Source: a virus. From it: a stretch of DNA of 52,606 bases. The translations under genes and the position numbers were made by a program. This document shows, in pieces, positions 4,988 to 42,877 of the stretch. Within the stretch, counting starts at the first letter, position 1, and each line of letters opens with the position of its first letter. The stretch covers positions 1 to 52,606 of the IMG/VR virus record IMGVR_UViG_3300037540_000099. One strand, given 5' to 3'. The notes under the pieces were generated by a model. It had not been told where the DNA came from, ran no database searches, and saw nothing but the letters and a program-made list of their open reading frames with translations.

Positions 4988-6291
4988 GACGCACCTCCCG
5001 CCTTCTTCACCAGCTCCTTCGCCTGCTCAATCGTAACGGGCTGCCCTCTCGTCGCGCCGACCTCCTCAAACCATGCCTTCTGCACGTCCTTCGGGATGTC
5101 GGCAACGGCCTCCCGGAAGGTCTCCATGAGGGCTTCGAGCTCGTCCGGTTCCTCCACCGTGAAGTCCGCGTCGATCGGTTCCTCGGACTCAGGCTCCGTC
5201 TTCCCGCTGGCTGCGCGGACCATCGCTTCGGCTGCAGCATCGGCACCGTCGAGGTCTGTGTCGAAGTCGTGCAGGAACTTGTTGATCACGGCCTCGCCCA
5301 GGTGCGGCCGCCACCGCTCGAAGAAGGCCTCCTCGGCACTCATCTGCGCGGCGTGGGCCTCGGGCGTAAACTCAGCATCCGCGGCGAGACGGGACAGCCG
5401 TTCCTCCCGTAGCTCGTGCAGCGACTTCACGCGGACAAGGGCTGCAGGCTCGGGCAGCTCTGCCAACTGCTTCGCCTCCAGTTCGAGCAGCTTCAGATCC
5501 CCGCGATAGTCGATCTTCACAGCAGGCGGGAAGATCGGTTGGCCAGTACCAGGGATCGCCGAGGGGCGGCGCTCGACCTTCAGCCAACAGGTGGCCCGGG
5601 CGAGGGTGCGCTTCGCGGAGCGGAGCAAGTTCTGCACGTCGTTGATGGACGTCGTGAGCCGGTTGAGACTCCCCCACGCCCGGGAGTAGTACGACGCAGT
5701 ACTCTCGTCCGTAGCCCAGTCGACCAGGAAGCTGAAGTCTATCACCGGCTTGCAGGCGATCTCGGCGTCCGGGTTTCGGAAGAACTCACAGAGCAGTGGG
5801 TCGCAGGTGATGATCTTCTTATCCTTGACGGCCTTCCCGATCCAGAACTCCGACAGCTCGGGGTCGATCTCGGAGAAACCCTGCGCCTCCAGCGCGGCGG
5901 CCTGCTCAGGGGTTTCCAGGAACTCAGGGCTCTTTGGGCTGTACGCCCCGCAGAGCATGTGACGCCCGGTGCACTTCTGCGACCACGACGCCAGGTGCAG
6001 GTCGATCCAGTCCATAGGATCAGGACCACGCAGGATGATCGGTACCCGGTCTGGCTCGAAGTCGCCTTCGCCATCCCACTCGACTTCGGCAGCCAAGTCA
6101 TCCTGCCAGGGCTGGTATGTCGGGTAGCCCATTGTGTCGGCAGGATCGCGCCCCTTCCGTGGCATCTTCTGCACATTGACCCTGCCGCACCGGAACCAAC
6201 AGTGGGCCCGTCGATCTTGGATGCGTGGCTCATCGAACATCGACTCAGCTATGGCCAGCCGGACTCCCGGCGACCTGCTCTTCTTGATCAT
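4984..6291 (-). CDS. Possible recombination-directionality-factor-like (Gp3-like) protein (435 aa)
   Basis: Start ATG 6291 (MIKKSRSPGVRLAIAES) follows AGGAG. The layout recalls the Gp3-like/RDF family: an N-terminal GRVNVQ segment, a low-complexity W/D stretch, DRVPIILRGPDP, a tryptophan-rich strand, and spaced Cys residues (KCTGRHMLC, CDPLLC) before CKPVIDFSF. The C-terminal 150 residues are acidic helices. I recognise the pattern but cannot align it. No integrase is present to be controlled, so it may instead be a DNA-binding recombination protein coupled to the adjacent nuclease. The family call is tentative. Confidence 0.4.
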   Translation of the reverse strand: MIKKSRSPGVRLAIAESMFDEPRIQDRRAHCWFRCGRVNVQKMPRKGRDPADTMGYPTYQPWQDDLAAEVEWDGEGDFEPDRVPIILRGPDPMDWIDLHLASWSQKCTGRHMLCGAYSPKSPEFLETPEQAAALEAQGFSEIDPELSEFWIGKAVKDKKIITCDPLLCEFFRNPDAEIACKPVIDFSFLVDWATDESTASYYSRAWGSLNRLTTSINDVQNLLRSAKRTLARATCWLKVERRPSAIPGTGQPIFPPAVKIDYRGDLKLLELEAKQLAELPEPAALVRVKSLHELREERLSRLAADAEFTPEAHAAQMSAEEAFFERWRPHLGEAVINKFLHDFDTDLDGADAAAEAMVRAASGKTEPESEEPIDADFTVEEPDELEALMETFREAVADIPKDVQKAWFEEVGATRGQPVTIEQAKELVKKAGGAS

Positions 6292-17169: not shown

Positions 17170-20066
17170 CAGACGATCCGCTCCCAGCGGGTTCCGCGTT
17201 CGTCACTCTGCCAGTGTACCGTCTCATTCGCCCGAACGTCAAGGGCAGTCATCTGTAGGCCGCCGTCAGACATTGCCCGAATGCGAGGGTAGGCGAAGCC
17301 GCTCAGATCATCCACCCTCTCCTCGTCAGTCCACTCCAGGCGCGGGTTGGGGACCGAGCGAACGTAGATAGTCCGCTCCCTGGTGTACGTGATCCAAGCG
17401 ATGCCCGCTGCGTCGAGGACCGAATCCACGTCGTCACTTCCGAAGTCCACGTCGCACGCCCACGGTGAGCTCTTCCCCCGCTCGATTTCGATCCCCGAGG
17501 TGCTGCGCCAACCAGGTCCGTCGTTTACGATGCTGAACTCCGCGTCCCCGTTCGTGGCCGCCGTGACGTCGATGTAGTAGCCGCGCGGGTAGTTGTGGTG
17601 CGCCCATTGATCGAGGAACAGCGGGAGGGCTGTCTGCCAGCCGACAGGCATTGTTGTGGTCAACACGACGGAGACGCCCGTGGTATCGGTCGCCGTCACC
17701 GTCACGCTTCCGCCCCCGTCGCTGGTGCCGATGATCTTCAGCATCACAGGACCGACCGTGCGCCCCAAAGTACCCTCCGCGCCCGCGATGCTCTCCCCGT
17801 CAGCGAAACCGCCGAGAGTCCACTGACCGAGCGTTAGGTGAGTCGCCACCCAGCGGGAGAGCCCCAGGCCCAACCAGTTCGCGACGAGGTAGGCATCGGT
17901 CTCCTCATAGGCAACCGGCGCCGGCCAGCCGGAGACCTCCACATCGAAGGTCAGTCCCGAGGTCATCGTCTTCACGACGCGGTTCCGCCAGACCTGAAGG
18001 ACCGAGAGGGTCCGGGTGCGGAACGAACTGATCATCTCCGTGTGGTAGCCGTTGTCCGTGCCTTCGATGCAGTGACCGCGCGTGTAACCGCCGTGCGTAG
18101 GATCGACCCAGACGGGTCCTCCGCAAGTCGAGCAGACCCAGGACTCGAAGGTCAGCGCCCGATTGATCAGCTTGTCTTCGAGGCCGACTGATACGGTTCG
18201 GTGCTCAAGCGGTTGCAGCCACTCACCGGATTGGAGACCGAGGCGGAAGGCCTCCTTGGGGCCCTCGGTCGCGGTGATCAGCTCCCCGAAGTTCGACTCC
18301 ACGGCAGAGCCATGCGCCTTGCCGCCTACGTAGGCGTAGACCGTCCGGCCGAAGCTCCCCTCGAAGTTCGGATCACCCGTTACCCACGGCGCGTTATCAT
18401 CTGCTACGAGGCTAAGGGGTGCCTGAATCTCCTCGCCGCTCGCATCATGGACGGAGTAGAGCTTCAGCGCCACCGCGTCGTTCTCTCCCTGCGTCAATGA
18501 GCTGCTACCGACCCAGCGGGGGAGTGGATCAGTCCAGACTCCTACGCCATTCGGCGTCTCGCGGAAGTCGAACTGCTCCCCCGTCCCCTCGTCCTCCACG
18601 TAGGCTGCCCTCTCGGTGACCGGCAAGTGTTCGTGAGGCCCGTCCGCTCCCCAGGGGCGAAGGCCCTCAGCCCCGGTCGGCGGCGCGGCCCCGCTGTTAC
18701 ACGCGGCGAAGCTACCGGCAACACCCACATCCCACCAGAAGCCGCTGAGATCGAGGGCTGTCGCTGGCTGTACCATACAGGACCCCTGTGAGTCCAGGAT
18801 CGCGATGAAGCCGATAGAGGGTTCGTGGTTAGTCGTGGCCTCGAAGGAGCCGTCAGCACCCGTCGTCGCCAGCGCCACCCAGCCCGTGTTGCCGAGCTCC
18901 GTCTTCCAGCCGTAGATCGTAGCGCCTGCCAGCGGCTCCGAGCCGTAGTGATAGGCTATCCCCTGAATCTTGTAGGTAGGCGCGCTGTAGTCAGTCCAGG
19001 CGCCGGCAAAGGTCACCGTGTACTGCCCGCCGCTGACCGTCTCAATGGACTGCCGGGGGATACCCCCCTGCGTATCATCGTTCGGATGATAGAGCGCGAC
19101 GTGGTACTTCCCCGGGGGCAGGTTCGTGTTCTCCGTCGCGGTCCCGGCGCCGTCGAGAGTGCCCTGCTTGCGGAGTAGGCCGCCATACCACATGATGCTG
19201 TACTTCGCGTCGGCCGGCCCGTTGATTGTGATGGAGACTGCGGCGATGTCAAGCTCCGAATCAACGCCCTCTTCGATCTCCACGAACTCCTGCTTGTAGT
19301 ACATGCGGAGCGATGAGAGAGTGCGCTCAGGCGTCGGTGCCGAAGGCCAGCCGTCTTCGTCCTCTCCCCGGTAGCCCTGGGCACCGAAGCCGCGCGGGAC
19401 CATGATCGGCTCAGTGGTCCCGTTCGGATAGACGCTCTCCACCACTCCATCGGCGTTCGTGCGAAACATCCCCCGGGCAGCCCCGTATCCATCCCACGGG
19501 TAGACCGCCTCCCACCAACAGAGGTGTGAGTCCTGCTCGGTGTCATAGATCATCGCAAGGTCGACCCAGGTATTCGCCTTGAGGACCCCGCCCTCGCTGA
19601 GTGTCACGCTTCCCGGCACCCAGGCCATGCGGAAGATCACCGAGTCGATGTCAGCGAACTCCGTTGCGGGTTGCCAGGTGTTGAAACTGCCGCCGATGTC
19701 CCGGCCCCAACTTGGCGCCGGAAGATCATCGAACATGAGGGCATAGACGGCGTTCCCGTCACCGTCGAGGCGACCGAGAAGTGAGACCGTCGTGTAGGGG
19801 TCGTTCTCAAAGGGGAGAGGGTAATCCGTCTCGCCAATGGTTGCCTTCAGCACGCGGAAGAAGAACTCGCTGCCTCCGTAGATGATCGAACCGCGACCGT
19901 CAGCGTTGACCGTGTTGGTGATCCCAACGACCTCGCCAACCTCACCGTCGAAGAGGTCCTCATGGGCAAGGGCAGTCCGCTGAAGACCGGAGGGCCAGAC
20001 CACCGGCACAGCAGGCACCGGAAGCGTGTTGTACGCAGGCTCGTTGTACGCCCCGCGATTGTACAT
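17169..20066 (-). CDS. Large tail protein, probable tail-tip/central-fibre component (965 aa)
   Basis: Start ATG 20066 (MYNRGAYNEPAYNTLP), overlapping the stop before it (TGATG). The N-terminal 250 residues are mixed beta with W/G-rich segments. A carboxypeptidase-regulatory-like beta domain follows (IQGIAYHYGSEPLAGATIYG, then TTGADGSFEATT). A Cys pair CSTCGGPVW with a later HC suggests a metal site. The C-terminus returns to tail-like beta. It is the longest gene; order and size fit a tail tip or side fibre. No enzymatic domain seen. Confidence 0.6.
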   Translation of the reverse strand: MYNRGAYNEPAYNTLPVPAVPVVWPSGLQRTALAHEDLFDGEVGEVVGITNTVNADGRGSIIYGGSEFFFRVLKATIGETDYPLPFENDPYTTVSLLGRLDGDGNAVYALMFDDLPAPSWGRDIGGSFNTWQPATEFADIDSVIFRMAWVPGSVTLSEGGVLKANTWVDLAMIYDTEQDSHLCWWEAVYPWDGYGAARGMFRTNADGVVESVYPNGTTEPIMVPRGFGAQGYRGEDEDGWPSAPTPERTLSSLRMYYKQEFVEIEEGVDSELDIAAVSITINGPADAKYSIMWYGGLLRKQGTLDGAGTATENTNLPPGKYHVALYHPNDDTQGGIPRQSIETVSGGQYTVTFAGAWTDYSAPTYKIQGIAYHYGSEPLAGATIYGWKTELGNTGWVALATTGADGSFEATTNHEPSIGFIAILDSQGSCMVQPATALDLSGFWWDVGVAGSFAACNSGAAPPTGAEGLRPWGADGPHEHLPVTERAAYVEDEGTGEQFDFRETPNGVGVWTDPLPRWVGSSSLTQGENDAVALKLYSVHDASGEEIQAPLSLVADDNAPWVTGDPNFEGSFGRTVYAYVGGKAHGSAVESNFGELITATEGPKEAFRLGLQSGEWLQPLEHRTVSVGLEDKLINRALTFESWVCSTCGGPVWVDPTHGGYTRGHCIEGTDNGYHTEMISSFRTRTLSVLQVWRNRVVKTMTSGLTFDVEVSGWPAPVAYEETDAYLVANWLGLGLSRWVATHLTLGQWTLGGFADGESIAGAEGTLGRTVGPVMLKIIGTSDGGGSVTVTATDTTGVSVVLTTTMPVGWQTALPLFLDQWAHHNYPRGYYIDVTAATNGDAEFSIVNDGPGWRSTSGIEIERGKSSPWACDVDFGSDDVDSVLDAAGIAWITYTRERTIYVRSVPNPRLEWTDEERVDDLSGFAYPRIRAMSDGGLQMTALDVRANETVHWQSDERGTRWERIV

Positions 20067-20941
20067 CAGGTCTTCGAGAGCTCCTGGTCGCTGCCCCACC
20101 CGTCGTTCTGGTAGTGGAAGTCGATCTCCAGCAGGAAGGCATCGGCGGCGTAGTCATCCCCATCGCTCACGTCTCGATAGATGCGGCACATCAGGGTCGG
20201 GGAGACACTCGTAATCCCACTCATGTCGATAGCAGCCAGGGCCGCGTATTGGTGCTTGTGGGCCACTCCGTCTCCGGCCTGGGTCACGTCAAGTGTGCTG
20301 GTCGCTCCAAACGTGCCGTCGATCTCGGCGAGCGTATACTCCAGTTTCCAGGTCACGCTCCCCGTGTCGGTATCGGAGGGCGCCCAGTGGATATGAGGGC
20401 GGAGCTCGGTCTCGACTGCCCAGCCATGAGGAACCTGCACAGTGAAGTACATCTCCTCGTCTTGATTCTTGTCGAAGGCATAGGCCTTCACAGTCCCCTG
20501 AAAGGTCTCCAGGTCTGGGGCGCTCGCACCGATGACTGCGGATGTGGCGGGGAAGCGGATGTCCTCCCACGAGAGGCCGTCCCCTGTCGTGCGGGTGACA
20601 CCAGTGATCGGTGAGTTCCCGGCGTCAAGGCTGAACTTCTCGTCCATGTGCTCTGCCATCACCAGGGCGGCCACGCGCGAGGCCGCGGCGTGATCGGCGG
20701 CGACCGTCCCCGACTGCGCCCGAACAACCGTGAGCACATTCCCCGCCTTGTTGGTACACTCCATCACCTCCATCCCCGGATCGTCGCCCGGGTCGCCATA
20801 GTTGGCGTCGTTCCAGACGGTCAGCCAGAACGGGGTTGCGGGGAGGAGTGATCCGTCGCCAACCGTCAGCGAGGTCTCGGAGCTGGTGATTACGTAGGTG
20901 AGGCGCGTCTTGGCGTTGTTGAGGACTTGGTGAGTGGCCAT
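20066..20941 (-). CDS. Tail-associated virion protein (291 aa)
   Basis: The N-terminus NNAKTRLTYVITSSETSLTV with WNDANYGDPGDDPGME and VVRAQSGTVAADHAAAS is a domain often found at the start of phage fibre proteins. The C-terminal half is jelly-roll-like (TVQVPHGWAVETELRPHIHW). Likely distal tail or fibre attachment. It is the first clear virion gene after the cargo block. Confidence 0.65.
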   Translation of the reverse strand: MATHQVLNNAKTRLTYVITSSETSLTVGDGSLLPATPFWLTVWNDANYGDPGDDPGMEVMECTNKAGNVLTVVRAQSGTVAADHAAASRVAALVMAEHMDEKFSLDAGNSPITGVTRTTGDGLSWEDIRFPATSAVIGASAPDLETFQGTVKAYAFDKNQDEEMYFTVQVPHGWAVETELRPHIHWAPSDTDTGSVTWKLEYTLAEIDGTFGATSTLDVTQAGDGVAHKHQYAALAAIDMSGITSVSPTLMCRIYRDVSDGDDYAADAFLLEIDFHYQNDGWGSDQELSKT

Positions 20942-20950
20942 GCCCGCATT

Positions 20951-21295
20951 CTACTGCGAGGGGTGAGACTGCGCAAGGGCTGAGGGGTGCGCGGGGATGC
21001 CGGCGAGGGAGCCGGGCGCTTCCGAAGCATCGATGATGGAGACCGAAGGGCGCCCGTCGATCACAGCCACTTCGATGCACTCACCGGAAGCCGTGAGGTA
21101 GCGGCCGGTAGGGATGTGCGTCTCGGTTGCTGCGACCGTCTGACGCTCTGCGCGGAGCTGTGCTCGCTTGGCTTCGGCAACTCGTTGGCCCGCCGTCCAC
21201 TCACCGAGCCAGACGCCGAGGCAGACCATCACGAGCAGGCCGAGCACGCAGAGGGCTGGCTTCAGGATGGAAGGGCGGCGGAGGGAGGTCATCAT
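20951..21295 (-). CDS. Membrane-anchored hypothetical protein (114 aa)
   Basis: ATG 21295 overlaps the previous TGA. A basic N-terminus and one membrane helix (ALCVLGLLVMVCLGVWLG) are followed by a helix (RVAEAKRAQLRAERQTV) and a small beta part with a C-terminal Ser/His/Pro tail. Last gene of the cargo block and coupled to the 302-residue protein. Function unknown. Confidence 0.6.
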   Translation of the reverse strand: MMTSLRRPSILKPALCVLGLLVMVCLGVWLGEWTAGQRVAEAKRAQLRAERQTVAATETHIPTGRYLTASGECIEVAVIDGRPSVSIIDASEAPGSLAGIPAHPSALAQSHPSQ

Positions 21296-22200
21296 ATCGT
21301 CCCGTTTGGTAGCTGCCCGATGATACCTGCATCGAAGCCGCCCTTGAATAGACGGCTCGGGTGCTGCTTCATCAGACCGTCTACGTAGTCAACACCCGAC
21401 CATGCTTCGAGGCCGGACAGCCACTCCGTCAGCATCGGGTACGGTGGCTGGTCGAGCAACTTCTTCGGCAGGATGCGCTCTTCCCGGTCGTGATCGTAGA
21501 GGGGCTTCATCTTGGGCCAGAACTTGAATCCGAGGAGAGCCCCCGTCAATACATTGTGCTCAATCAGCTTCGCCCTGAGCGGTTGGCCACTTGCCCAGTA
21601 GCAGTCCAGGATGATCTGATAGTCGATCAGCATCAGGGCCAAGCGCCCGCCAACGGAGCGGACCATCGCGGCCGCCTCGTCTACGAAGGTGCAGATCCGA
21701 TGGCTGCTTTCGGCCCGCATCGCATCATCATTCTGGGAGATCGTCTGACAGTAACCCGTCTCAGCGTAGCGGTTGCCAACCAGGATCGCCCGGACCTGGG
21801 GCGCCACGTCGCGGAGAACCTCCAAGTTATGATCATAGGCGATGGTCGGCGCCGGCGGGAACGGGCCATCGTTGAATTGGGTGCCCTCGTACATCGGCGC
21901 GTAGAGCACATCTTGCGTGCAGGCAACCTTGTGTAGATCGGAACGGAAGAGCCAGTCGGTCTCCACACCGTTCGGCGCGGTCCCGTAGCCGGTCGTGCAA
22001 ACGAGGATGCGCCCGGGCTCATAGTTGATGGACTGCCACGTTGCCCTGCCCGAGCAGCAGATCAGGTAGAGCGGGAACGGGCACTCATAGGGTGTGCTGT
22101 ACTCCTGGGCATTGCGGACTATCCGCGTCGGCTTGTCCGTCTCGATCTCATGTCCTGCTGCTCCCAGCCCGGTTACGCTTGGCGCAGATATGAGCCCCAT
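21292..22200 (-). CDS. Unrecognised 302-residue protein coupled to the tRNA-synthetase-like gene
   Basis: Start ATG 22200 (MGLISAPSVTGLGAAG) behind GGAGTTGGG. The gene overlaps the synthetase-like gene by 28 bases. It is soluble alpha/beta by eye, with a Gly-rich opening, a mid-segment CCSGRATWQSINYEPG, and strand-helix units LEVLRDVAPQVRAILVGNRY and VGGRLALMLIDYQIILDCYW. It carries eight or so Cys. I cannot place it in any family. Its translational coupling suggests that it acts on the same substrate or product as the synthetase-like enzyme. Confidence 0.7.
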   Translation of the reverse strand: MGLISAPSVTGLGAAGHEIETDKPTRIVRNAQEYSTPYECPFPLYLICCSGRATWQSINYEPGRILVCTTGYGTAPNGVETDWLFRSDLHKVACTQDVLYAPMYEGTQFNDGPFPPAPTIAYDHNLEVLRDVAPQVRAILVGNRYAETGYCQTISQNDDAMRAESSHRICTFVDEAAAMVRSVGGRLALMLIDYQIILDCYWASGQPLRAKLIEHNVLTGALLGFKFWPKMKPLYDHDREERILPKKLLDQPPYPMLTEWLSGLEAWSGVDYVDGLMKQHPSRLFKGGFDAGIIGQLPNGTI

Positions 22201-23006
22201 GTTTCCCAACTCCAGACGTGCGGCTGAGGATCGAGGTTCTGAACGTCTACAGGTTGCCCGATTGCGGACAGCGGGTCAAGGGGATTGGCGGCCGTAGCCA
22301 GCAAGTAGGTCCGCGCGTCTTCGACTGAGGCAGCCTGCATCGCATCCCACGGGACCCCGCCGACAGACTTGCTCATCCCCGCCCCGTAGTCATCGGTGAT
22401 CATCGGCAGGGAGAGCTGCAGGTGCTCGCGCCCGGCCGCCTCGAAGACGGCCTTCTCAAGGGCGATCATCTTTTGGATGCCCACCGAGCTGTCGGCTTCC
22501 GGCGGCCACTCCGGCGCATAGTCCGCGCCCTCGGCGAACTCCATCCCGCGAATCATCAGGCTCGGGTAGTAGTCAACCAGATCATCCATGATCAGGTTGC
22601 GGAACTCCACCCCCAGGCTTGCGAGGTGGTCTATGGTCTCTCTGATCCTGGCCCACACAGTCGGGCCGACCTGCTGTGCGTACTGGGTGTCAGGACGCGG
22701 GCGAACGCCAATCGGCGCCCTGTAGACCTTCGCCGCGCGAATGCCGAACCACGCCATGCAGCCGGCCAGGTCGATCACTCCCCCGTAGTGATACTCCGGG
22801 CGCTCCCAACTGCCGTCAAGCCTGATGTGGAACGGGATGCCCTCGCGCTCGCAGTGGAGCGCACCGAGCAGCAGCGTCCGCACATGGCCGACGTGAATCC
22901 GCGACCGAGGGTACTGCCAGAGGCGCAGGTTGACCGCCTGGTAAGGATCGTGCGGGGAGGGATCGCTCTGGATGGTGATGGCCACGCGGGCTCGTCGGTA
23001 AGTCAT
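22173..23006 (-). CDS. Stand-alone Glu/Gln-tRNA-synthetase-like catalytic core (277 aa)
   Basis: Class I aminoacyl-tRNA synthetase (HUP) fold of the GlxRS type. The HIGH motif is H38-V-G-H41 in SRIHVGHVRTLLLGAL, followed by FHIRLDGSWERPEYHYGGVI where GlxRS has its acidic LRIEDTD segment. The IRG segment is at 152-154, then QLSLPMITDDYGAGMSKSVG with the KMSKS equivalent M211-S-K-S. The anticodon-binding domain is absent and the protein ends soon after KMSKS. Length is like GluQ-RS (about 300), which glutamylates queuosine in tRNA. It could adenylate an amino acid and pass it to tRNA, a small molecule or a protein. ATG 23006 overlaps the stop of the 65-residue gene. Confidence 0.82.
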   Translation of the reverse strand: MTYRRARVAITIQSDPSPHDPYQAVNLRLWQYPRSRIHVGHVRTLLLGALHCEREGIPFHIRLDGSWERPEYHYGGVIDLAGCMAWFGIRAAKVYRAPIGVRPRPDTQYAQQVGPTVWARIRETIDHLASLGVEFRNLIMDDLVDYYPSLMIRGMEFAEGADYAPEWPPEADSSVGIQKMIALEKAVFEAAGREHLQLSLPMITDDYGAGMSKSVGGVPWDAMQAASVEDARTYLLATAANPLDPLSAIGQPVDVQNLDPQPHVWSWETWGSYLRQA

Positions 23007-23200
23007 TTCGGATGTTGCCTTTCCGTCTCCTCGAGGATCTCAAACCAGAGCTGATCAATGGCTTCCGGTGGGGCCTGCAGTATCAGGGCCGCCGTCATGT
23101 GGCGGCCTCGCTTCTGCAGGGTGCTCACAAGGTGGCTGCGCTTCCTCTCGGGCGTCCAGTTCACGATAGCGTCCGCAACACCGGCAGTCTTCGGATTCAT
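23003..23200 (-). CDS. Small helical protein in the cargo cluster (65 aa)
   Basis: ATG 23200 behind AAGGGAG overlaps the TGA of the secreted-protein gene, and its own stop overlaps the synthetase-like start. The sequence is helical and basic (WTPERKRSHLVSTLQKRGRH). It could be an acceptor or adaptor for the neighbouring enzyme because of size and coupling, but nothing in the sequence proves it. Confidence 0.55.
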   Translation of the reverse strand: MNPKTAGVADAIVNWTPERKRSHLVSTLQKRGRHMTAALILQAPPEAIDQLWFEILEETERQHPK

Positions 23201-24990
23201 CCCTGCTCCCTTTGCAGCGCCTCGATCTCCCGCACGACCTCGGCCCGCAGGTCGTCGAGGTTGCGCTCGCAGAGCTCGTTCATGTGTTTACCCTCGAGCC
23301 ACGCGCCGCCGTCAAGCGCGTTCAGCGTGGCAACGTACCGGGCGTCGTCTACGCCTTCCCTGAAACCTTCCCAGCCGATGGTATCGAACATCGCCTCCGG
23401 CCCTCTGCAACTCAGGAACCCGTTGACGATGCCGGTGTCTACCGGGTCGCCGACCTTCAGCGGGGGATCGAAGCCGCAGTAAGCCCACGTCATCGTCCCA
23501 TCGGTTCCGCGCACGTAGAGGCCGAAGCCCCTGTTCCTCCGGTGACTCTCCGGGTCGGGCCAGTTGCCCGGGGGGTCCATGTAGGAGAGGACCTCGTTCC
23601 CCGCCGCGTGAGAGGCCGTGATGCCCTTCTCGAAGCGCGGGTCTGCCTGGTACTTGCCGCCGTCTGTGACCCAGAGCCTCGGGTCGCACCTCGACCGACT
23701 GTATGGGTTGCGCAAGAACTCGTCGGAGTTCGACTTCGCGTGGTCGAGGCAGGTCCCGTAGCCGTAGCCGGGGTCCATGATTACGGCGGTGCGGAGCGAG
23801 TCAGCGACAGCCGGTGCCCAGTCGTGATTGCATGCCACCCAGCACCCGCCACCGTTCGGGGTTCGGCAGGAGTGGAATGACTCGCGCTCGCCCATGAGGA
23901 TGTCAATGGGTGCCTCGTCCATCCCCATCCACAGGACGGACGTGTATCCTCGGTCCATCGCCCAGGCGTTGATCTTCAGCGCCCGGGCCTTGTTGAGTGC
24001 CTGTTCGTCGTGGGTCAGCGGGCGGTTGTAGACGATGGTCATGCCGCCGTCCATCGTATAGAGGCGGCCCTTCGGCATTCCCGCCTGCTCGCGCAAGTCG
24101 AGGATGCGCCCGAGCAGCTCGAAGTCCATGATGCCAGTCTCAATGCCCGGCGTGTCCTTTGGCAGCACCCTCGCGCCGTCGTAGGTGTTCGGGTTGGTGC
24201 AGCCGTGCGCCACCATGTTCCGGAAGTCACTGAGCATCTGCGCTTCGGTCAGCATCTCCGACGCCTTCGGGGCATCGGGGGGCAGCGCCCCTTCGAGTCG
24301 CTTCGGGTAGTAGATGGAGTATGTGAACGGCGCGTCGATCAGGTCGATGTCCGGCACCCGAACGGTGAGCGTGATGACCGTCTTCGGCTTGCCCTCCACG
24401 GTGACGGTGACTCGCCCTTTGTAGGTGCCCGCCGTCGCGTCCTCGGGGACGTGGACGGTCAGCCAATACTGTTCGCGCCCATCGCTATCCACGGGCAGCA
24501 TCGTCGGCGAGTCGATGGCCTCCTTCACCACCTTCATAAATGCCCAGTGTTCACCCTCTGACGGACGGGCCCGAAGGCCTGCAGGCGTCGGGAGGTCTGG
24601 GCTCCCGTAGGTAAGCTCGAAGATGCCGGGATCGTGTACCAGCGTCCACGGGAAGATGCCCATGCTCGCCCGGGTCACGTCGTGCGCGGTCATCTGAGCG
24701 AGTCGGATGTCAACGCAGGAGGAAGGCAACCGCCCCTCTTCCCCGCGCAGGCCAGAGCACGTCACGCGGATGCCCGTCAACGGTTCCTCTGAGTCCACGA
24801 CGAAGGTCGCCGGTTCGTATTCACCCCGGCAAGCGGTCACGGCCAATGACCGGCCCTCTCTGTACTCAACAGGGAGCGGGCCATCCGGCATGACCGATGC
24901 CAGGGTGAACGGATGGTCGGTCGTGTAGACCTCGTAGGCGCCGGCCGAAGAGCCGACACCTACGAGGGTGAGCAGTGCGAGGGTTCTCAT
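23197..24990 (-). CDS. Secreted DUF4091/GH123-like glycoside-hydrolase-family protein (597 aa)
   Basis: ATG 24990 behind AAGGAG gives a signal peptide MRTLALLTLVGVGSSAGA. An N-terminal beta-sandwich (RGEYEPATFVVDSEEPLTGI, then EDATAGTYKGRVTVTVEG) precedes a TIM-barrel-like part. WMGMDEAP places D358-E359 where GH123 enzymes carry the catalytic acid pair. GWEGFREGVDDARYVATL is the DUF4091 hallmark. Relatives are common in Armatimonadota and Planctomycetota. It would act outside the cytoplasm on N-acetylhexosamine-containing or other glycans. The first 33 codons of the longer frame are not used. Confidence 0.75.
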   Translation of the reverse strand: MRTLALLTLVGVGSSAGAYEVYTTDHPFTLASVMPDGPLPVEYREGRSLAVTACRGEYEPATFVVDSEEPLTGIRVTCSGLRGEEGRLPSSCVDIRLAQMTAHDVTRASMGIFPWTLVHDPGIFELTYGSPDLPTPAGLRARPSEGEHWAFMKVVKEAIDSPTMLPVDSDGREQYWLTVHVPEDATAGTYKGRVTVTVEGKPKTVITLTVRVPDIDLIDAPFTYSIYYPKRLEGALPPDAPKASEMLTEAQMLSDFRNMVAHGCTNPNTYDGARVLPKDTPGIETGIMDFELLGRILDLREQAGMPKGRLYTMDGGMTIVYNRPLTHDEQALNKARALKINAWAMDRGYTSVLWMGMDEAPIDILMGERESFHSCRTPNGGGCWVACNHDWAPAVADSLRTAVIMDPGYGYGTCLDHAKSNSDEFLRNPYSRSRCDPRLWVTDGGKYQADPRFEKGITASHAAGNEVLSYMDPPGNWPDPESHRRNRGFGLYVRGTDGTMTWAYCGFDPPLKVGDPVDTGIVNGFLSCRGPEAMFDTIGWEGFREGVDDARYVATLNALDGGAWLEGKHMNELCERNLDDLRAEVVREIEALQREQG

Positions 24991-25175
24991 ATTGCGCTCC
25001 TTGTGGGTGCGTTTCGTCGCGCGATAGCAGCAAGGCGAACGATGGCGCCAGCTATGATGACGGCCTCTGCGGCCTTGAACGTGACGCACCCGCCTGCAGC
25101 GTCTCGTATCTCAACCTTATCGAGTCTTTGCACGACCGTCCCGGCGGTTGTGCCGTCGTCAGATATGACCTCCAT
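24987..25175 (-). CDS. Small protein with a hydrophobic C-terminal half (62 aa)
   Basis: ATG 25175 behind GGAGGAG. Residues 36-52 (AEAVIIAGAIVRLAAIA) could insert in membrane. The stop overlaps the start of the secreted protein. Function unknown; it lies between pseudopilin and hydrolase genes. Confidence 0.5.
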   Translation of the reverse strand: MEVISDDGTTAGTVVQRLDKVEIRDAAGGCVTFKAAEAVIIAGAIVRLAAIARRNAPTRSAI

Positions 25176-25212: not shown

Positions 25213-25932
25213 CTACCAGGGGAAGTCGCCGGGCTGGTGCAGGCACAGGTTGCGGGCGTGCCATCGGTAGTGACTCGCGCCGGTTGAATCCCAGTCCGTA
25301 GGCCACTTCAGTCGGCCTGCGTGCCCGTCGAGGAAGACGGCGTTGGAGCCCATGCTGTGCCGGTCGGGGCTGAACCTGCGATACGGGTAGTACAGGTAAG
25401 GGGTCGGGTTGCCGTCGCCGCGATTGCACCCCTGGTTGTCGGCGATCATCACGATGTCACTCATTCCCGTCAGGGTGCCATTGGGCAGCATACGAGTCCA
25501 CACGTTCTCGGGGAAGATGCCGGTGATGCAGATGTTGGGCGCGTAGCTCAAGAACCGGGCCTTCGCGTTGTACGGCTGTCGCCGCGTCAGCCACGAACAG
25601 TTTTTCCAGTCGGGGCAAACGAGCACGGACTCGTTCGCGATGTACGGGGTGAGGATGCCACCCCAGGGCACCAGGCTCTCAAGGTTCGGCCCGTAGTAGA
25701 CGAACCACACATTCTCCCCGCCGCCGTTGCTCGACGGAGGCAGGGCACCATCCTCGTCCGAAGCATACGTCAGGGCCGCCATCCCAAGTTGGCGGATGTT
25801 CATGAGGCAGTTCGTCGTCCGCGCCTTCTTGCGGACCTGGGCGAACACTGGGAAAAGGATCGCAGCCAGGATGCAGATGATCGCGATCACGATCAACAGC
25901 TCTATGAGGGTGAAGCCTTGTCTGCGTCTCAT
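25213..25932 (-). CDS. Type IV pseudopilin with H-X9-DG domain (DUF1559-like, 239 aa)
   Basis: A prepilin leader MRRRQG precedes FTLIELLIVIAIICILAAIL with the conserved Glu at mature position 5. The host's prepilin peptidase would cut after the Gly and N-methylate the Phe. The continuation FPVFAQVRKKAR and the C-terminal RHSMGSNAVFLDGHAG (H-X9-DG) are hallmarks of the large pseudopilin families of Planctomycetota, Armatimonadota and Lentisphaerae. The FPVFAQ form is the one I associate with Armatimonadota. SD AAAGGAG lies ten bases upstream. No peptidase or assembly ATPase is encoded, so the protein must use host machinery. Confidence 0.9.
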   Translation of the reverse strand: MRRRQGFTLIELLIVIAIICILAAILFPVFAQVRKKARTTNCLMNIRQLGMAALTYASDEDGALPPSSNGGGENVWFVYYGPNLESLVPWGGILTPYIANESVLVCPDWKNCSWLTRRQPYNAKARFLSYAPNICITGIFPENVWTRMLPNGTLTGMSDIVMIADNQGCNRGDGNPTPYLYYPYRRFSPDRHSMGSNAVFLDGHAGRLKWPTDWDSTGASHYRWHARNLCLHQPGDFPW

Positions 25933-25967: not shown

Positions 25968-26177
25968 CTATCGAGCCAAGCCCGGCGCCGGTCCTCCCGT
26001 CTCTGGCGTTGCCCCGTCAGCGGTGCCAGGAATGGGTGCAGGCGAACCTGGCGTGGCTTCCACGCCCTCACTCGGCTTGTCGCGCAAAGCGGCCCATACG
26101 AAACAGCCGACGAGCACGACTGCGGCAACGACTATCGCGATCACTATCCTCGGGTCGACTGCCTTCTTCTCGTTCAC
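25968..26177 (-). CDS. Small single-pass membrane protein beside the pseudopilin (69 aa)
   Basis: GTG 26177 behind AAGGAGGG overlaps the lipoprotein stop. One helix (RIVIAIVVAAVVLVGCFVWA) is followed by a Pro/Gly/Ala/Thr-rich tail of about 35 residues exposed outside. Such small proteins accompany pseudopilin genes in related bacteria, as far as I recall. Function unknown. Confidence 0.65.
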   Translation of the reverse strand: MNEKKAVDPRIVIAIVVAAVVLVGCFVWAALRDKPSEGVEATPGSPAPIPGTADGATPETGGPAPGLAR

Positions 26178-26755
26178 GGTGTCCCTCCTTCGGGTACATG
26201 CCCCCGCGCTCGGGGGTCGTAGCTTGACAGCGTGCTCCCGTCTGCCATGCACTCGGGTCTCCACTTGTTCTCTCCACGGATGAAGCCGAGCTTCTCGCGA
26301 CTGATTGCCACCTCCCTTGCAACTGCCGTGCTGTCGTCTGTATGGGCTGCCTTGATCTCCGCATCGGCCTTCCGGTCACCGATCTCGGCCATCACCCAGA
26401 CAGCCTTCGCGCGAAGGTCCGCGTCAACGTTGCTGCCGGCCGCGATTTCCCCCATGCCCATGATCACACGGTTCGTGTGGGGCTCGCCCTTCTTGCGCTT
26501 GTGCCTCGTCTTCGCGAACCAGCGCCGCCCGCGAATCACGAGTGCCGATGCGGTTGCCTCTCGGGGAGCCAGGTCATGCTTGAAGGCGTGAATGAGGGCC
26601 TCCGCGCTCTCCCGAGAGTCAAGCGCACAGAGGCTCTCTACGGCGTCCACCTTCCCCTGCGGGGCAGGACGGTCAAGCGCATCCCGAAGCTCAGGCACAG
26701 GCGACACAGAGCAGCCTGAGAGCACGAGGAAGGCGGCGAGGGGGAGGAGTCTCAT
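26174..26755 (-). CDS. Lipoprotein with HEAT-like helices (193 aa)
   Basis: MRLLPLAAFLVLSGC gives a lipobox L-S-G-C with Cys15 as lipidation site. The mature part has helical repeats (SLCALDSRESAEALIHAF, DADLRAKAVWVMAEIGDRK) like HEAT/PBS repeats. It would be anchored in the inner or outer membrane. GTG 26764, which overlaps the previous stop, is an alternative start that adds three residues. Confidence 0.7.
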   Translation of the reverse strand: MRLLPLAAFLVLSGCSVSPVPELRDALDRPAPQGKVDAVESLCALDSRESAEALIHAFKHDLAPREATASALVIRGRRWFAKTRHKRKKGEPHTNRVIMGMGEIAAGSNVDADLRAKAVWVMAEIGDRKADAEIKAAHTDDSTAVAREVAISREKLGFIRGENKWRPECMADGSTLSSYDPRARGHVPEGGTP

Positions 26756-26760
26756 GGGGT

Positions 26761-27624
26761 TCACCAGTGGGCATCCCTATAGACGCCAGGCAGGCGGGTG
26801 CATTGTGAACGCCAGCCTTCGTATGTGTGCTGATAGGTGCGGATTGGATTGGGGAGCAACGCTTGCCCCGTGACGCGCTCTTCACCTCGGTGCGTGATGC
26901 AGTAGCAGGCCCCGCCGTCATTCCGCTGCCACACCTGCCCGACCTCGATGGGCTCGGGTTCGGGGGCGGCCAGAATGCACTTCTTCTGCACAGCGGACCA
27001 GTACTTGCACTTGGGCTCGGCTTCCTCCGCGAACTCCTGGCGCTGCTCGGGCTCGATGCCCTCGTGAGGGTCGGGCTTCTTGGTGCGCCGCTTCCCTATC
27101 ACCTGCGGCTCGGTGTCCTTGCGCGGGTCATCCTTCGCCTCGGCGGGTGGGGCTGTCTCGTCGCTTGACAATTCTTCGAGCTTGGCACGGAGTTCTTCTT
27201 CGGTGAGACCAGCCGCTTTCAGCTTCCAGAAGAGCGCCATCACACGGGCCATGCCATCCTCTTCTGCCTCGGTTGATCCACGCGGCTCCTCGGCGGGCGC
27301 CGCTGTTACGCCATGCCGCATATTGAAGGCAACAAGTTCGGGATGGATGGCTTCGCACTTGATGCAGCGTTGTCCGTGGTAATGCCAAACCTCATACTGA
27401 TGCTCGCACTTCTCGCGGCCTGCTTCCTCGGCAGGCGGGTCTTCGCGCTCAAGGTCCTCAGCCACCACGACCATTGCGTTCTCGCCCAGCGCCGTCGGCA
27501 TCACTGTACCGACAAGCCGTAGCGCCTTCGCTATCCTCAGGTCGACCTCTCGCTCGGTCAGGCCGGGCGAAGGTGCCTTCGCTGCAATGCCCTCTCTCTC
27601 ACGGATGGGTGGTAGGTCAGTCAT
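26761..27624 (-). CDS. Hypothetical protein with Cys/His motif (287 aa)
   Basis: ATG 27624 overlaps the sulfotransferase stop. The N-terminal third has EKCEHQYEVWHYHGQRCIKC, a likely zinc site. The middle is low-complexity E/K/P-rich and the C-terminal part has a beta domain (IEVGQVWQRNDGGACYCI). Not recognised. Its position between the sulfotransferase and the lipoprotein suggests membership in the cargo operon. Confidence 0.6.
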   Translation of the reverse strand: MTDLPPIREREGIAAKAPSPGLTEREVDLRIAKALRLVGTVMPTALGENAMVVVAEDLEREDPPAEEAGREKCEHQYEVWHYHGQRCIKCEAIHPELVAFNMRHGVTAAPAEEPRGSTEAEEDGMARVMALFWKLKAAGLTEEELRAKLEELSSDETAPPAEAKDDPRKDTEPQVIGKRRTKKPDPHEGIEPEQRQEFAEEAEPKCKYWSAVQKKCILAAPEPEPIEVGQVWQRNDGGACYCITHRGEERVTGQALLPNPIRTYQHTYEGWRSQCTRLPGVYRDAHW

Positions 27625-28457
27625 CACGCCTCCAGTATTCTGAGCAGGCTCTCACCGTGTTCGAGTTCTTGGGCTAGTGGCCTCGCCGTGTCTCGGAGCC
27701 GCTTCAGCCTCTCTGCCTTCAGCGCCCGGAAGCCTTCTACATTGCGGGCGACCCTCATCGTTTCCCATCCCCGAGCCGACAGGTCTGGGCGCCGTCGCGG
27801 GAAGCCGATCTTGGCGAGTATGTCCGGCCAGCGAACGTCCTTGTCGATCTCGTCCGCAAGATCATCGAAGAGGATCGACTGACCTCCGGCTTCCTCTACA
27901 TCGCGAGCATCCTGGCAGGTCGCTGCCAGCCAGATCAGGAAGAGGGTTTCCAGGTCATCCTTCGGATCGAACAGGTGGTAGATGGCCTCCGCCGCTGTCC
28001 CCTTCGAGCCCTCCCGCTGTGAGTCGAATGTCTGCACTACCCAGAACCAGAAGTCCCGCTTTGCGAAGCTCGCTGCCACTCCATCGAAACCACGCCAGAG
28101 GTGGATCACTCTCGGCTCGGCGCCGCCGGCACGGAGGCCTTCCAGGGCGAGGGGGATCTTGTAGCAGAGGTACACTTCCTTGAATCCGTTGTGCCCCCAC
28201 TTGTGCTCCCCGAGATCCTCGAAGAGCTTCGGCATGTTGTCCTGCATGTTGGCGCTCGGGGTCGGCTGCATGTAGTCTCCACGGTAGGCGCCCTTCCCCT
28301 CGAAGAAGGTGCTGTGCCGGTTGCCCAGCCACCTCTCGATGCGATGCCCCCGCAGACCGTAAACAGGCTCGTTGCAGATGTCGATCCCCTCTATCGTGTT
28401 GAGGGACTCCAGAAACCAGGTGCTGCCCGAGCGGGGGAAGGAGAAGATGGAGATCAT
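27624..28457 (-). CDS. PAPS-dependent sulfotransferase family protein (277 aa)
   Basis: The 5'-phosphosulfate-binding loop FPRSGSTWFLESL is at residues 7-19. The 3'-phosphate-binding region RVIHLWRGFDGVAASFAKR is at 116-134, with R122 and S130 in the usual places. Such enzymes move sulfate from PAPS to hydroxyls of sugars, lipids or tyrosine. With the glycosyltransferase two genes upstream, sulfated glycan synthesis is plausible. ATG 28457 overlaps the small upstream gene. The 168 codons before it in the open frame are shadow of the glycosyltransferase gene. No PAPS-synthesis genes are present. Confidence 0.85.
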   Translation of the reverse strand: MISIFSFPRSGSTWFLESLNTIEGIDICNEPVYGLRGHRIERWLGNRHSTFFEGKGAYRGDYMQPTPSANMQDNMPKLFEDLGEHKWGHNGFKEVYLCYKIPLALEGLRAGGAEPRVIHLWRGFDGVAASFAKRDFWFWVVQTFDSQREGSKGTAAEAIYHLFDPKDDLETLFLIWLAATCQDARDVEEAGGQSILFDDLADEIDKDVRWPDILAKIGFPRRRPDLSARGWETMRVARNVEGFRALKAERLKRLRDTARPLAQELEHGESLLRILEA

Positions 28458-28669
28458 CGGAGCCGCGCCCTTCGTCGTTCCTCCCACAGACCGAGAAGGT
28501 ACGGGATGCTCTTGCGCAGACGCCCCTCCTGCTTCGGAGCCGTTGAGGGAGTCCGTCGTGCGTGCGCGAGGATAGCCTTCGCGGTTCGCCGCAGGTCCGC
28601 TCGCGACGGAGGCCCGTACTGCTTGAGCACTCGCCGGATAGCCTCGGGATCGACCTTGAGTCGGATCAC
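28454..28669 (-). CDS. Small basic protein (71 aa)
   Basis: Both ends overlap the neighbours as ATGA, between glycosyltransferase and sulfotransferase. Very basic, with R/K clusters (EERRRARLR at the end), possibly nucleic-acid-binding. No family recognised. Confidence 0.55.
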   Translation of the reverse strand: MIRLKVDPEAIRRVLKQYGPPSRADLRRTAKAILAHARRTPSTAPKQEGRLRKSIPYLLGLWEERRRARLR

Positions 28670-30261
28670 TCCTCTGCCTCCCCGCTGACTTCAGCCTGCG
28701 CATCCGCCTCCCGATCTCGTCTCGCCTCTTCCGCCAACCTCGCGGCCATTTCCGCCGCGGTCTCACGCTCGCCGATCTTCTCGACGAGGAGTTCGTGGAA
28801 CTGGCCGGCCATCCGCTCGGCTGCGAACATCTCTGCGACCTGCAGGCTGAACTCAGGAGGGACCCGACCGTCGTGCAGGTGAGCCACAACGGTGTCGGCC
28901 ATCTCGTCCAAGTCGCCCGGCTCGCACAGGTCAACATACGGAGGGAGCCCGAGCAGATCATAGATCTCAGGGATGCCCCCGCCGATCATGGCCACAACCG
29001 GACACCTGCACATCAGAGCCTCGGGGATGATCAGCCCGAACGGTTCGTCGGTCCTTGTGTGCATCAGGCAATCCATCGCTCCGTACATCGCCGGCATCTG
29101 ATCGGGGCTGACGTGCGCGTGGATGATGTCGGCCTCGGCGAGCTCCGCTCTCTGCATGTACTTCGTCTTCTGATCCGTGAATTCGTCAACATCATCGGGA
29201 GGGATCACCGAGGCCCAGGTGAGGCCACGCTTTTCGGCCCGCTCGCGCGAGGCCACATAGACTTCCGGCTCCCACATCGGCCCGACCATCAGGCCACGGA
29301 CTCGCGACTCGCGATGCGCCTTCATGGATGCCAAGCAGGAGACCCACTCAACCGGCTTCTTCTCCTGGCTGAAACGCCCCGAGAAACCAACGATGAGATC
29401 ATCAGGCCGAATGCCCAGCGACTCACGCACCTTCGTCCGCGACTCCTCATCACACGGCCGGAAGACCTCGGAGTCGATCCCGTTGTAGATCAGGTAGACA
29501 GGCACTTGAGGCATTCGGCCGGACGTATGGACGCGGTTGGCGGAGTGATCGGAGACGGCTATGATGAAGTCGCTCGGATGTTCCTGCGCATCCCAGTTCC
29601 AGCCGCAATGATTGTATTCGCCGATCAGCGGGACACGCAGGTCGTTGGCTGCGAAGAGAGGGGCATGTGCGAGCTGACCAATCACGATGTCCGGCGCCAC
29701 ATCCCGCAGGACCTTCGTGGCCTCCGCCCGGGCCCGCTGGAACGGGCCAGGCATCGGCGGGAAGTCCCACTCAAACATCAGATAGTGCTCTATGAGTTCG
29801 ACGCCTTCAGGGAGCGAGTCATCCATGTCCTTCACTTGGCCGGTCACCACGACAGGCGTGAAGAGGTCCCGGTCAAGATGCTTGATGTGGGTGATGGTGA
29901 CGACTTCGAGGCCGCCCCGGTGCCAGCAGGGCGACACGAACGCGATCTTGTAGGGCGGGGAGTCGGGCTTCGGGCCGACCTGTCTCGTGAGGGGAAAGCC
30001 GATGGGCTCGTGATGAGGGATGATCTTCTGCGCGGCCATTAGCGGTTCGTCCTCCTGCGGTACTGGTGCGCCGCTTGGGCGTGGCGTCGGACCCCGACTG
30101 ACGAGCGCCTCCAAGTCCTCCCGCCGGTAGCGGGTCTGCTTCCCCACCCGAACGGCTGGCAGCGTGCCCTGCTTGGCCCATCGCCGAACCGTGCGCGGGG
30201 TCACGTCGAGAAACCGTGCTGTCTCTGCGCATGTCATCAGGGGAGTCTTGCTACCCAACAT
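28666..30261 (-). CDS. HTH (excisionase/MerR-like)-GT4 glycosyltransferase fusion (531 aa)
   Basis: Residues 9-53 are a helix-turn-helix of the excisionase/HTH_17 type (CAETARFLDVTPRTVRRWAK, then RYRREDLEALV). After a Pro-rich linker, residues 100-500 are a GT-B family 4 glycosyltransferase: AFVSPCWHRGGLEV, GRFSQEKKP (R296, K301) and E406-x7-E414 in EPFGLIIPEALMC, the nucleotide-sugar site. A coiled-coil tail ends the protein. ATG 30261 lies seven bases after a -10 box, so the mRNA may be leaderless. A second start at 30039 (MAAQKIIPHHEP) has AGGAGG eleven bases upstream and would give the transferase alone. Confidence 0.82.
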   Translation of the reverse strand: MLGSKTPLMTCAETARFLDVTPRTVRRWAKQGTLPAVRVGKQTRYRREDLEALVSRGPTPRPSGAPVPQEDEPLMAAQKIIPHHEPIGFPLTRQVGPKPDSPPYKIAFVSPCWHRGGLEVVTITHIKHLDRDLFTPVVVTGQVKDMDDSLPEGVELIEHYLMFEWDFPPMPGPFQRARAEATKVLRDVAPDIVIGQLAHAPLFAANDLRVPLIGEYNHCGWNWDAQEHPSDFIIAVSDHSANRVHTSGRMPQVPVYLIYNGIDSEVFRPCDEESRTKVRESLGIRPDDLIVGFSGRFSQEKKPVEWVSCLASMKAHRESRVRGLMVGPMWEPEVYVASRERAEKRGLTWASVIPPDDVDEFTDQKTKYMQRAELAEADIIHAHVSPDQMPAMYGAMDCLMHTRTDEPFGLIIPEALMCRCPVVAMIGGGIPEIYDLLGLPPYVDLCEPGDLDEMADTVVAHLHDGRVPPEFSLQVAEMFAAERMAGQFHELLVEKIGERETAAEMAARLAEEARRDREADAQAEVSGEAEE

Positions 30262-30305: not shown

Positions 30306-31895
30306 CTATTCCTGCAGGGCCGCATCGCGATCATAACCTGCGGCTTGGTCCTCAAACCAGCCCTCGCCATTCTCAAGGTTGATGTTGAGGGTACCAGGGA
30401 TATTGGTCGCTGCTTGAGCTTGCCGAGCTTCGTGGGCCTCACGAATAGCCTCGGCGTGACGACGAGAACCCGGGGTGACGCCTGGAGGTACTGTCGTGAC
30501 TGGGGCAAAGGTCTCTACGCCTAGCACTCCAGGGAATACGGCTTCAGGTGGCTGGGCCATCACTGGAGCATCGAGAGGGGCGATTGCTTCAGTAGGCCCA
30601 ACAGGGCGAGCGCCTCGACGTCTTATGCTACGGCGTTGTGCTTGCAGCCTGCCGAACACTTCTCCGATCTGCTCGCCCAGTTGCTTTTCTGTCTCTGCCG
30701 CTATTGCAATCTCCCGCGTTTCCTGACGTCTCTCAATCTGATGGACCGCAAAGAGACCAAGTATACCTGCCCCACCGGGCACTGCCCTACCGGCTGCCCC
30801 CCGAGCGCCCGCAAGAGCACCACCGCCACCGGGCACTCTACCGCCGCCGCGAGCGCCGGGACCAATCGGGATTATGGCGCCGCCTCCACCTCCCACACCG
30901 GCTACACCAGCCGCGCCGGCAGTTGCTCCCGCCCTGGCCATTCGACTGGCGGCGACTTCCGTGGCTGCCGCCGCCTGAGTAGCAGCCACGCCCGTCCGCG
31001 TGAACCAGCCGATCACCATTCTGAGTCCATTGATCAGGAACGGAAGCGCCATAAGGATCGGCCCGCCGACGCCGAATGCGATCCCGATAGCGAAGGAGGC
31101 CTTGATGATCTTCTCCGCCAGCTTGGGATGTTCGTCTGCCCACTCGCGGAAGGAGGCGATGGCCTCGGCGAAGTTCTCCGCCGCCTCAGCGATACCCGGG
31201 CCAAGCGTGGTGACGAGGGTCTGCCCGAGCCCCTGCGCTGCCAACTTGACTTCGTTGAGGGCATCGTTGTAACGCTCTGCCGCTTGGGCCGCGTCCTTAT
31301 CCCAGACGATGCCCAGCTCTTCGGCCCGCTCGGTGAGCTCCTTGACGCCCTCGGAGCCCTGGTTCAGCATCGTAAGGAGCGCGACTCCACGCCCGCCGAA
31401 GATCTCCTGCGCCGTCGCTGCCTTGAGCGTGCCCTCCTCCATCTTCGAGAAGCCGTCGGCGAGGTCATTGATCAGCTCTTCGGCGCTCTTGATCGTGCCG
31501 TCTGCCTTCTTCACGGAGACGCCCACGCGCTCGTAGGCTTGCTCATACTGCTCCATGCCATCAGCCGCTTCAGCCGCCGACCGTTGCATTCCCCGAAGGC
31601 TCATCTGCAGGGCGCCGAACTCAAGGCCGGACTGCTCGGCTGCGAACCGGAGCTTGCTCAGTTCCTCTACTGCGACACCCGTAATCTGAGCCGCCTTCGC
31701 TATTTCGTCCCCGTACCGCGCGGCGCTGGTGAGCGAGGCCATCATGGTTCCGGTGATGGCTGCACCCACAGCCGTCATCACCCGGCCGACCCCGGCGGCC
31801 TTGTTGGCGAGCGAGTCCAAGCGGCTCTCCGTCTGACTGAAGCCGCGACCGGACTGATCGACGTAACCAAGAAGGACCTTCAGGTCGAGTGGCAT
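30306..31895 (-). CDS. Tail tape measure protein (529 aa)
   Basis: Typical layout: DLKVLLGYVDQSGRGFSQTE start, long helical regions with a PhageMin-like part (AARYGDEIAKAAQITGVAVE, then GGRGVALLTMLNQGSEG), two hydrophobic segments (IIKASFAIGIAFGVGGPILM) and a Gly/Ala-rich tail. Using the usual relation of about 0.15 nm per residue, a tail near 80 nm is expected. It is placed just after the tail chaperones as usual. ATG 31895 is the natural start. Confidence 0.88.
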   Translation of the reverse strand: MPLDLKVLLGYVDQSGRGFSQTESRLDSLANKAAGVGRVMTAVGAAITGTMMASLTSAARYGDEIAKAAQITGVAVEELSKLRFAAEQSGLEFGALQMSLRGMQRSAAEAADGMEQYEQAYERVGVSVKKADGTIKSAEELINDLADGFSKMEEGTLKAATAQEIFGGRGVALLTMLNQGSEGVKELTERAEELGIVWDKDAAQAAERYNDALNEVKLAAQGLGQTLVTTLGPGIAEAAENFAEAIASFREWADEHPKLAEKIIKASFAIGIAFGVGGPILMALPFLINGLRMVIGWFTRTGVAATQAAAATEVAASRMARAGATAGAAGVAGVGGGGGAIIPIGPGARGGGRVPGGGGALAGARGAAGRAVPGGAGILGLFAVHQIERRQETREIAIAAETEKQLGEQIGEVFGRLQAQRRSIRRRGARPVGPTEAIAPLDAPVMAQPPEAVFPGVLGVETFAPVTTVPPGVTPGSRRHAEAIREAHEARQAQAATNIPGTLNINLENGEGWFEDQAAGYDRDAALQE

Positions 31896-41130: not shown

Positions 41131-41252
41131 GAAGGCCGTCCCATCAGCAGGAGTCGCCAGTTTGCCTGCGGCGGGCCCCCGGGCAGGCCGGCCTGGCGAG
41201 ACCGATGTCCGGGGACCCAGGCACGCCTTTACGACGTACCAGTACCAGCCGT

Positions 41253-42869: not shown

Positions 42870-42877
42870 CACTCACC

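Follow-up and report, generated by a model that had tools for sequence, protein, structure and literature searches.

Aminoacyl-tRNA synthetase cores working outside translation are a recurring, sparsely charted theme, and MshC, PoxA, GluQ-RS, and asparagine synthetase A were each separate surprises. GluQ-RS (YadB, glutamyl-queuosine tRNA-Asp synthetase) consists of a synthetase core alone, about 280–300 residues long, and activates glutamate without tRNA (PMC3542578, PMC9437257). MshC and PoxA are precedents for acceptors other than tRNA (PMC9437257, PMC3542578). For a paralog of seryl-tRNA synthetase (SerRS) that is linked to a glycosidase and to liposaccharide genes, the predicted role is ligation of an amino acid to a surface sugar (PMC2922099). 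Full-length glutamyl-tRNA synthetase (GluRS) is already known from huge phages (PMC7162821). Here, we describe P0001, a predicted amino-acid-activating core encoded in the IMG/VR virus record IMGVR_UViG_3300037540_000099. The complete record, 52,606 bases at 63% GC, was analyzed and is called the window below. Sequence comparison indicates that P0001 and two relatives in other phages almost certainly descend from GluRS.

Relationship of P0001 to GluRS

By itself, P0001 had no match in Pfam, PHROGs, NCBIfam, or PADLOC and gave weak matches only against the PDB (phmmer), the top six of which were GluRS. The viral contigs of IMG/VR were scanned with a spaced degenerate DNA motif built on the HVGHVRT-to-RLD spacing, which is the HIGH-to-RIED spacing of GluRS. 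Two of the six hits encode full-length relatives, one of 260 residues in IMGVR_UViG_3300025073_000042 (tblastn E = 6e-36) and one of 272 residues in IMGVR_UViG_3300014656_000025 (tblastn E = 4e-40). Both are 34–37% identical to P0001 in the alignment.

A profile of these three sequences matched GluRS or GlnRS in 14 of its 15 PDB matches (best E = 0.0015). Aligned by hhalign with a profile of 15 GluRS/GluQ-RS sequences, it gave a probability of 94 (P = 1.4e-7) over 213 columns and a score of 58, compared to scores of at most 25 for 200 column shuffles and 12 for the reversed alignment. Each half also aligned at the correct place when taken separately (P = 1.4e-8 for the N-terminal part and 1.9e-5 for the C-terminal part). 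PF00749 was the sole Pfam family found with the two relatives (E = 0.008 and 0.03, under the curated cut-off), and gltX models ranked first in their NCBIfam scan, with one weaker metG match. The earlier note had read this protein as a stand-alone GluRS/GlnRS-type core in a late-operon cargo block, and the profile, spacing, and tree evidence agree on this. MshC was rejected as the identity of P0001 because neither MshC nor cysteinyl-tRNA synthetase (CysRS) occurred among the PDB profile matches and the MshC fold ranked 43rd and lower.

Structure prediction with AlphaFold2 (AF2) was of low confidence. The single P0001 sequence without an alignment gave a pLDDT of 35, and the three sequences together gave a pLDDT of 49.8 and a pTM of 0.50. 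A Foldseek search with the latter model returned GluRS as the top three PDB matches (probability at most 0.97, TM score at most 0.43) and as the first match in BFVD, too, a ranking that lends weak support to the family relation.

Motifs, spacing, and active site

The gene for P0001 and its motifs lie as follows:

22173–23006, minus strand: P0001, predicted GluRS-derived amino-acid-activating core, 277 residues, open from ATG
22974–22988, minus strand: strand 1 R-V-A-I-T, residues 7–11, counterpart of R-[FI]-A-P-S in GluRS/GluQ-RS
22884–22895, minus strand: HIGH motif HVGH, residues 38–41, from the alignment and motif scan
22812–22823, minus strand: RLDG, residues 62–65, counterpart of RIED in GluRS
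22545–22586, minus strand: DD...PSLMIRG, residues 141–154, counterpart of VVDD...HVIRG in GluRS
22365–22379, minus strand: GMSKS, residues 210–214, KMSKS-type with the first K lost

P0001 was taken as a real gene because it is open from ATG, has a GC content of 0.80 at the third codon position, and overlaps both neighboring open reading frames (ORFs). The values for codon positions 1, 2, and 3 (0.67, 0.46, and 0.80) fit a real gene at 63% GC. In the alignment, the core of P0001 runs from DD (141–142) through IRG (152–154) and E156 to MSKS (211–214), and R, V, A, and T of strand 1 are invariant across the three family members. The KMSKS loop reads GMSKS in P0001 and KMSKS and KISKQ in the two relatives. 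HIGH and R[IL][ED] are 24 residues apart in each of the phage proteins and in the 14 GluRS/GluQ-RS sequences measured. A single copy of the motif H-x-G-H-x-R-[TSA]-(17)-R-x-[DE] is present in the window and none in its dinucleotide shuffles, and since a slightly stricter form of the motif retrieved true relatives in two other phages, these motifs are conserved and not due to chance. The positions of HVGH, IRG, and GMSKS, and their GluRS/GlnRS order, were as first described. The description of a protein that stops soon after KMSKS without an anticodon domain also holds, as the C-terminus lies 63 residues past GMSKS.

R7, R153 of IRG, and D142 are invariant in the alignment of the three family members. 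We take R7 and R153 to be the counterparts of R5 and R205 (Thermus numbering), the two arginines that contact glutamate in GluRS structures. Since both glutamate-contacting positions are invariant, an acidic amino acid appears to be the likeliest substrate. Activation of glutamate by P0001 is likely on the same alignment.

Comparison with GluQ-RS and other known enzymes

GluQ-RS had been named in the earlier note as the closest known architecture. This stands with respect to the stand-alone core without an anticodon domain, and P0001 shares length class, motif order, and HIGH-to-RIED spacing with GluQ-RS; however, the diagnostic features of GluQ-RS failed. The stretch from R[IL][ED] to DD, which in GluRS holds the connective insertion that contacts the tRNA acceptor end, is 76–79 residues long in the three phage proteins compared to 136–169 in GluRS/GluQ-RS (148–169 in GluRS and 136–157 in GluQ-RS, excluding two comparison sequences with a wrongly chosen DD). 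The zinc-type CxC...Y...C motif was found in six of six GluQ-RS and in none of the phage proteins. The GluQ-RS signature is I, L, or V in place of the GluRS Thr after RIED (PMC3542578); this position is I or L in all six GluQ-RS and S, D, and P in the phage proteins. The phage proteins are also longer than GluQ-RS in two places, the loop from strand 1 to HIGH and the stretch from IRG to KMSKS. In a maximum-likelihood tree of 17 sequences, the three phage proteins lie on one side of a branch with a support of 100/100, apart from GluQ-RS. P0001 was rejected as a GluQ-RS on the grounds of its separate clade, shortened insertion, and missing zinc motif and signature residue. It was also rejected as a tRNA-charging GluRS because it is without an anticodon domain and without the full connective insertion.

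The GluRS proteins of huge phages (LR745206.1, LR756501.1; PMC7162821) are likewise phage-encoded members of the GluRS family, but they are complete synthetases of about 490 residues in phages of 635–735 kb, whereas the P0001 family is a deeply diverged core in records of 53–80 kb. The full-length GluRS genes of these 635–735 kb phages (e.g., 1492–2970 of the LR745206.1 piece) group with ordinary GluRS. MshC resembles P0001 in that a class I synthetase core is reused and an amino acid is joined to a non-tRNA acceptor in a sugar context, an activity that is putative for the phage protein; in contrast, MshC is CysRS-derived and about 400 residues long, and the phage family matches GluRS instead. 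EpmA/PoxA, the EF-P lysylase derived from lysyl-tRNA synthetase (LysRS), is also a truncated synthetase and modifies a protein, but it has a class II fold and no sequence relation to P0001. The SerRS-paralog operons similarly link a synthetase paralog to glycosidase and surface-sugar genes, but they hold a bacterial class II SerRS with an acyl carrier protein, and the function there is predicted (PMC2922099).

Distribution of the family

The family has three members, all in phages within the collections searched. Further scans of the viral contigs with two other motifs gave no additional members, and neither 8-mer peptide patterns of P0001 run against viral contigs and genome contigs nor tblastn of P0001 against phages and plasmids found a relative. 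Matches to Gordonia and Oenococcus by tblastn were judged to be chance. The conserved peptides of the family had no match in a strict scan covering 84,980 bacterial and archaeal species genomes, which suggests that the family is absent from bacteria. Searches for sister phages with P0002 (the protein encoded downstream of P0001) and the portal found none. No description of such a phage GluRS-derived family was found in the open-licence literature searched.

A cassette shared by three phages

The genes around P0001 that bear on its function are the following:

21292–22209, minus strand: P0002, 302/305 residues, no recognizable fold, downstream of P0001 and overlapping its end
23003–23200, minus strand: 65-residue ORF, upstream of P0001, with an ATGA stop/start overlap (translational coupling)
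23197–25089, minus strand: GH123-like protein with a signal-peptide-like N terminus; the start is probably the internal ATG of MRTLALLTL...
25213–25932, minus strand: DUF1559/N_methyl type IV pilin-like protein with a counterpart in all three cassettes
26174–26764, minus strand: HEAT-repeat protein with a lipobox-like LSGC (Pfam scan, homology)
28666–30261, minus strand: glycosyltransferase (GT4-type Pfam matches) with an N-terminal HTH_17, in the same late block

The GluRS-like gene lies in a late tail-side cassette in all three phages, where it is preceded by genes for a DUF1559/N_methyl pilin and a secreted-looking protein. The GH123-like protein has a homolog at the same place in one relative, and the secreted-looking protein of the third phage is of unassigned family. 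Glycosyltransferases are close by in every case (GT4 in the window, GT4-type and GT9 in one relative, three of GT2-type in the other), and one phage also has a sulfotransferase and a SPASM-domain protein near the GluRS-like gene. In IMGVR_UViG_3300014656_000025, the GluRS-like gene is directly followed by one for a homolog of the HEAT-repeat lipoprotein-like protein.

The three phages were compared by blastp with 71, 90, and 101 selected ORFs, a selection that misses the pilin and HEAT genes. The window shared three genes with each relative, and the phages are nearly unrelated. The GluRS-like gene was the strongest shared match with one relative (E = 1e-42) and, behind P0002, the second strongest with the other (E = 3e-38). 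Such conservation between phages that share almost nothing else suggests that the gene is under selection.

Coupling of P0001 to both adjoining genes had been pointed out before. It was upheld for P0002, as a homolog (32% identity over 300 residues, E = 5.6e-42) follows the GluRS-like gene in one of the two relatives. Coupling to the 65-residue peptide lacks such conservation: at that place, one relative has an ORF of 119 residues that is dissimilar and the other has none. P0002 had no match in Pfam, PHROGs, NCBIfam, PADLOC, or the PDB, and its two-member family has the conserved blocks RDV.PQV.A.LVGN..AET and GGF.AG.IG.LP.G.

Several further observations were made in these cassettes. The pilin combines a prepilin N terminus with a weak H-X9-DG motif at its C-terminus, the relatives encode a pilin too, and the window's pilin had no match in a collection of 50,697 phage records at E 1e-3. 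The pilins carry the N terminus AILFPVFA, which is presumably associated with Armatimonadota. For Fimbriimonas, the number of pseudopilin genes is 79 (PMC4072686), and because of these two points, an Armatimonadota host for these phages is plausible but unproven. The ORF at 28666–30261 apparently fuses an HTH_17 (excisionase-like) DNA-binding domain to the glycosyltransferase; its end overlaps the ORF at 27624–28961 by about 300 bases, and the start calls are doubtful. In IMGVR_UViG_3300014656_000025, the same cassette encodes a 730-residue protein (3970–6162) resembling a glycosyltransferase joined to a radical-SAM/SPASM domain, of which SPASM alone attains a Pfam cut-off. The 379-residue secreted-looking protein of that record was tried as a GH123 relative, and hhalign gave no support. 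TnpB-like transposon proteins are encoded near the cassette in both relatives (L075, 12557–13834; L069, 11233–12339) and are a possible route of cassette mobility.

The phage genome

The window is a tailed phage, judging from its terminase, portal, capsid, and tape measure genes. Library scans of the window proteins gave:

20066–20941: tail-fiber-like protein
30306–31895: tape measure
36005–37651: capsid
38839–41310: portal
42878–44251: terminase
48337–49800: DnaB

P0001 lies in the late block, with the tape measure on one side and tail-fiber-like genes on the other. ARAGORN found no tRNA gene in the window. Glu or Asp tRNA genes were not found in the sequence of any of the three phages, one of which carries tRNA genes for Met, Pro, and Met. 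Directly downstream of the terminase gene is a DNA methyltransferase ORF of 472 residues (41454–42872); its PHROG match covers the whole protein and only part of the profile, as if a large insertion were present.

Proposed function and alternatives

We propose that P0001, having descended from GluRS and retained the adenylate-forming core alone, would convert glutamate or a close analog and ATP to an aminoacyl-AMP. The aminoacyl group would then be transferred to a non-tRNA acceptor, onto an amine or hydroxyl, and the neighboring late cassette would make or display this acceptor. Candidates are the pilin-like, secreted, and lipoprotein products and any glycan or lipid-linked sugar that the glycosyltransferases make, and P0002 might, speculatively, supply or hold the acceptor. 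In this way, the surface of the phage or host would be modified, by a logic like that of MshC (CysRS-derived, cysteine onto an amino sugar) or EpmA/PoxA (LysRS-derived, onto a protein) on a GluRS scaffold.

A non-tRNA acceptor is favored because P0001 retains the adenylation core but has lost or shortened both tRNA-binding parts, and because its gene is linked to surface and glycan genes. The short stretch of 76–79 residues, the missing zinc motif, and the lack of Glu/Asp tRNA genes in the three phages point the same way. The earlier note had offered a small-molecule, glycan/lipid, or peptide acceptor as other possibilities, and these have gained support, with the tRNA-contacting insertion mostly gone and the pilin/glycosyltransferase cassette present in all three phages. 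We give the whole chain, in which a GluRS-derived core activates glutamate and transfers it to a non-tRNA acceptor of a surface cassette, a probability of roughly 0.45. More doubtful, and put forward tentatively, is the claim that this virus-specific GluRS branch is a glutamate ligase for a surface or virion glycan, lipid, or protein that travels with a pilin/secreted-protein/glycosyltransferase cassette between nearly unrelated phages.

Several points weigh against the proposal. The family is known from three members only, and the AF2 model is poor. That glycan genes lie nearby in the late operon of a phage could simply reflect clustering of cargo genes. Within the active site, the first K of KMSKS is G in the window copy, the counterpart of GluRS E41 is D, and the glutamate-pocket tyrosine of GluRS is not clearly retained.

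One alternative is that P0001, while still in this fold class, has abandoned amino acids and acts as a nucleotidyl- or adenylyltransferase on another carboxylate or a phosphate, e.g., a sugar acid for glycans. RLDG in place of RIED, a glutamate pocket that is only partly recognizable, and the many glycan genes nearby would fit, but P0001 keeps a KMSKS-type loop, IRGxE, and DD, which are traits of aminoacyl-tRNA synthetases and not of HIGH-type cytidylyltransferases, and the two pocket arginines are invariant. We consider this alternative unlikely. It is also improbable that P0001 modifies tRNA or other RNA like GluQ-RS, placing glutamate onto a modified nucleoside of a host tRNA to aid phage translation. 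Although the two are of the same length class without an anticodon domain, and GluQ-RS needs no tRNA to activate glutamate, the phage proteins form a separate clade, have S, D, or P at the signature position, and have lost the zinc-bearing insertion. Moreover, there was no queuosine gene among the window proteins scanned, and the gene lies in a tail-side late cassette, away from translation genes.

The loss of the first K of KMSKS in the window copy could indicate that P0001 has no catalytic activity and serves as a decoy or regulator by binding host GluRS, tRNA, or ATP. However, HIGH, RLDG, DD, IRG, and SK are kept in proteins with an overall identity of about 35%, and the relatives retain KMSKS/KISK, so this seems very unlikely. 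Least probable is phage DNA modification, in which the aminoacyl-adenylate would decorate a base: in some phages, DNA bases carry attached amino acids and the window holds a DNA methyltransferase, but the gene sits in a tail/cargo block far from replication genes and no base-hypermodification family was found among the window proteins scanned.

The P0001 family drops even the tRNA-contacting insertion that GluQ-RS retains, and its genes lie among those for pilins, glycosyltransferases, and secreted proteins. It offers an enzyme of about 270 residues that can be tested directly in three natural versions, along with candidate acceptors within a few genes. If the transfer of glutamate to a surface acceptor is true, it would be a first case of phage surface modification based on the core of an aminoacyl-tRNA synthetase. 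Phages would then aminoacylate surface molecules, which may bear on adsorption, superinfection exclusion, or virion decoration.
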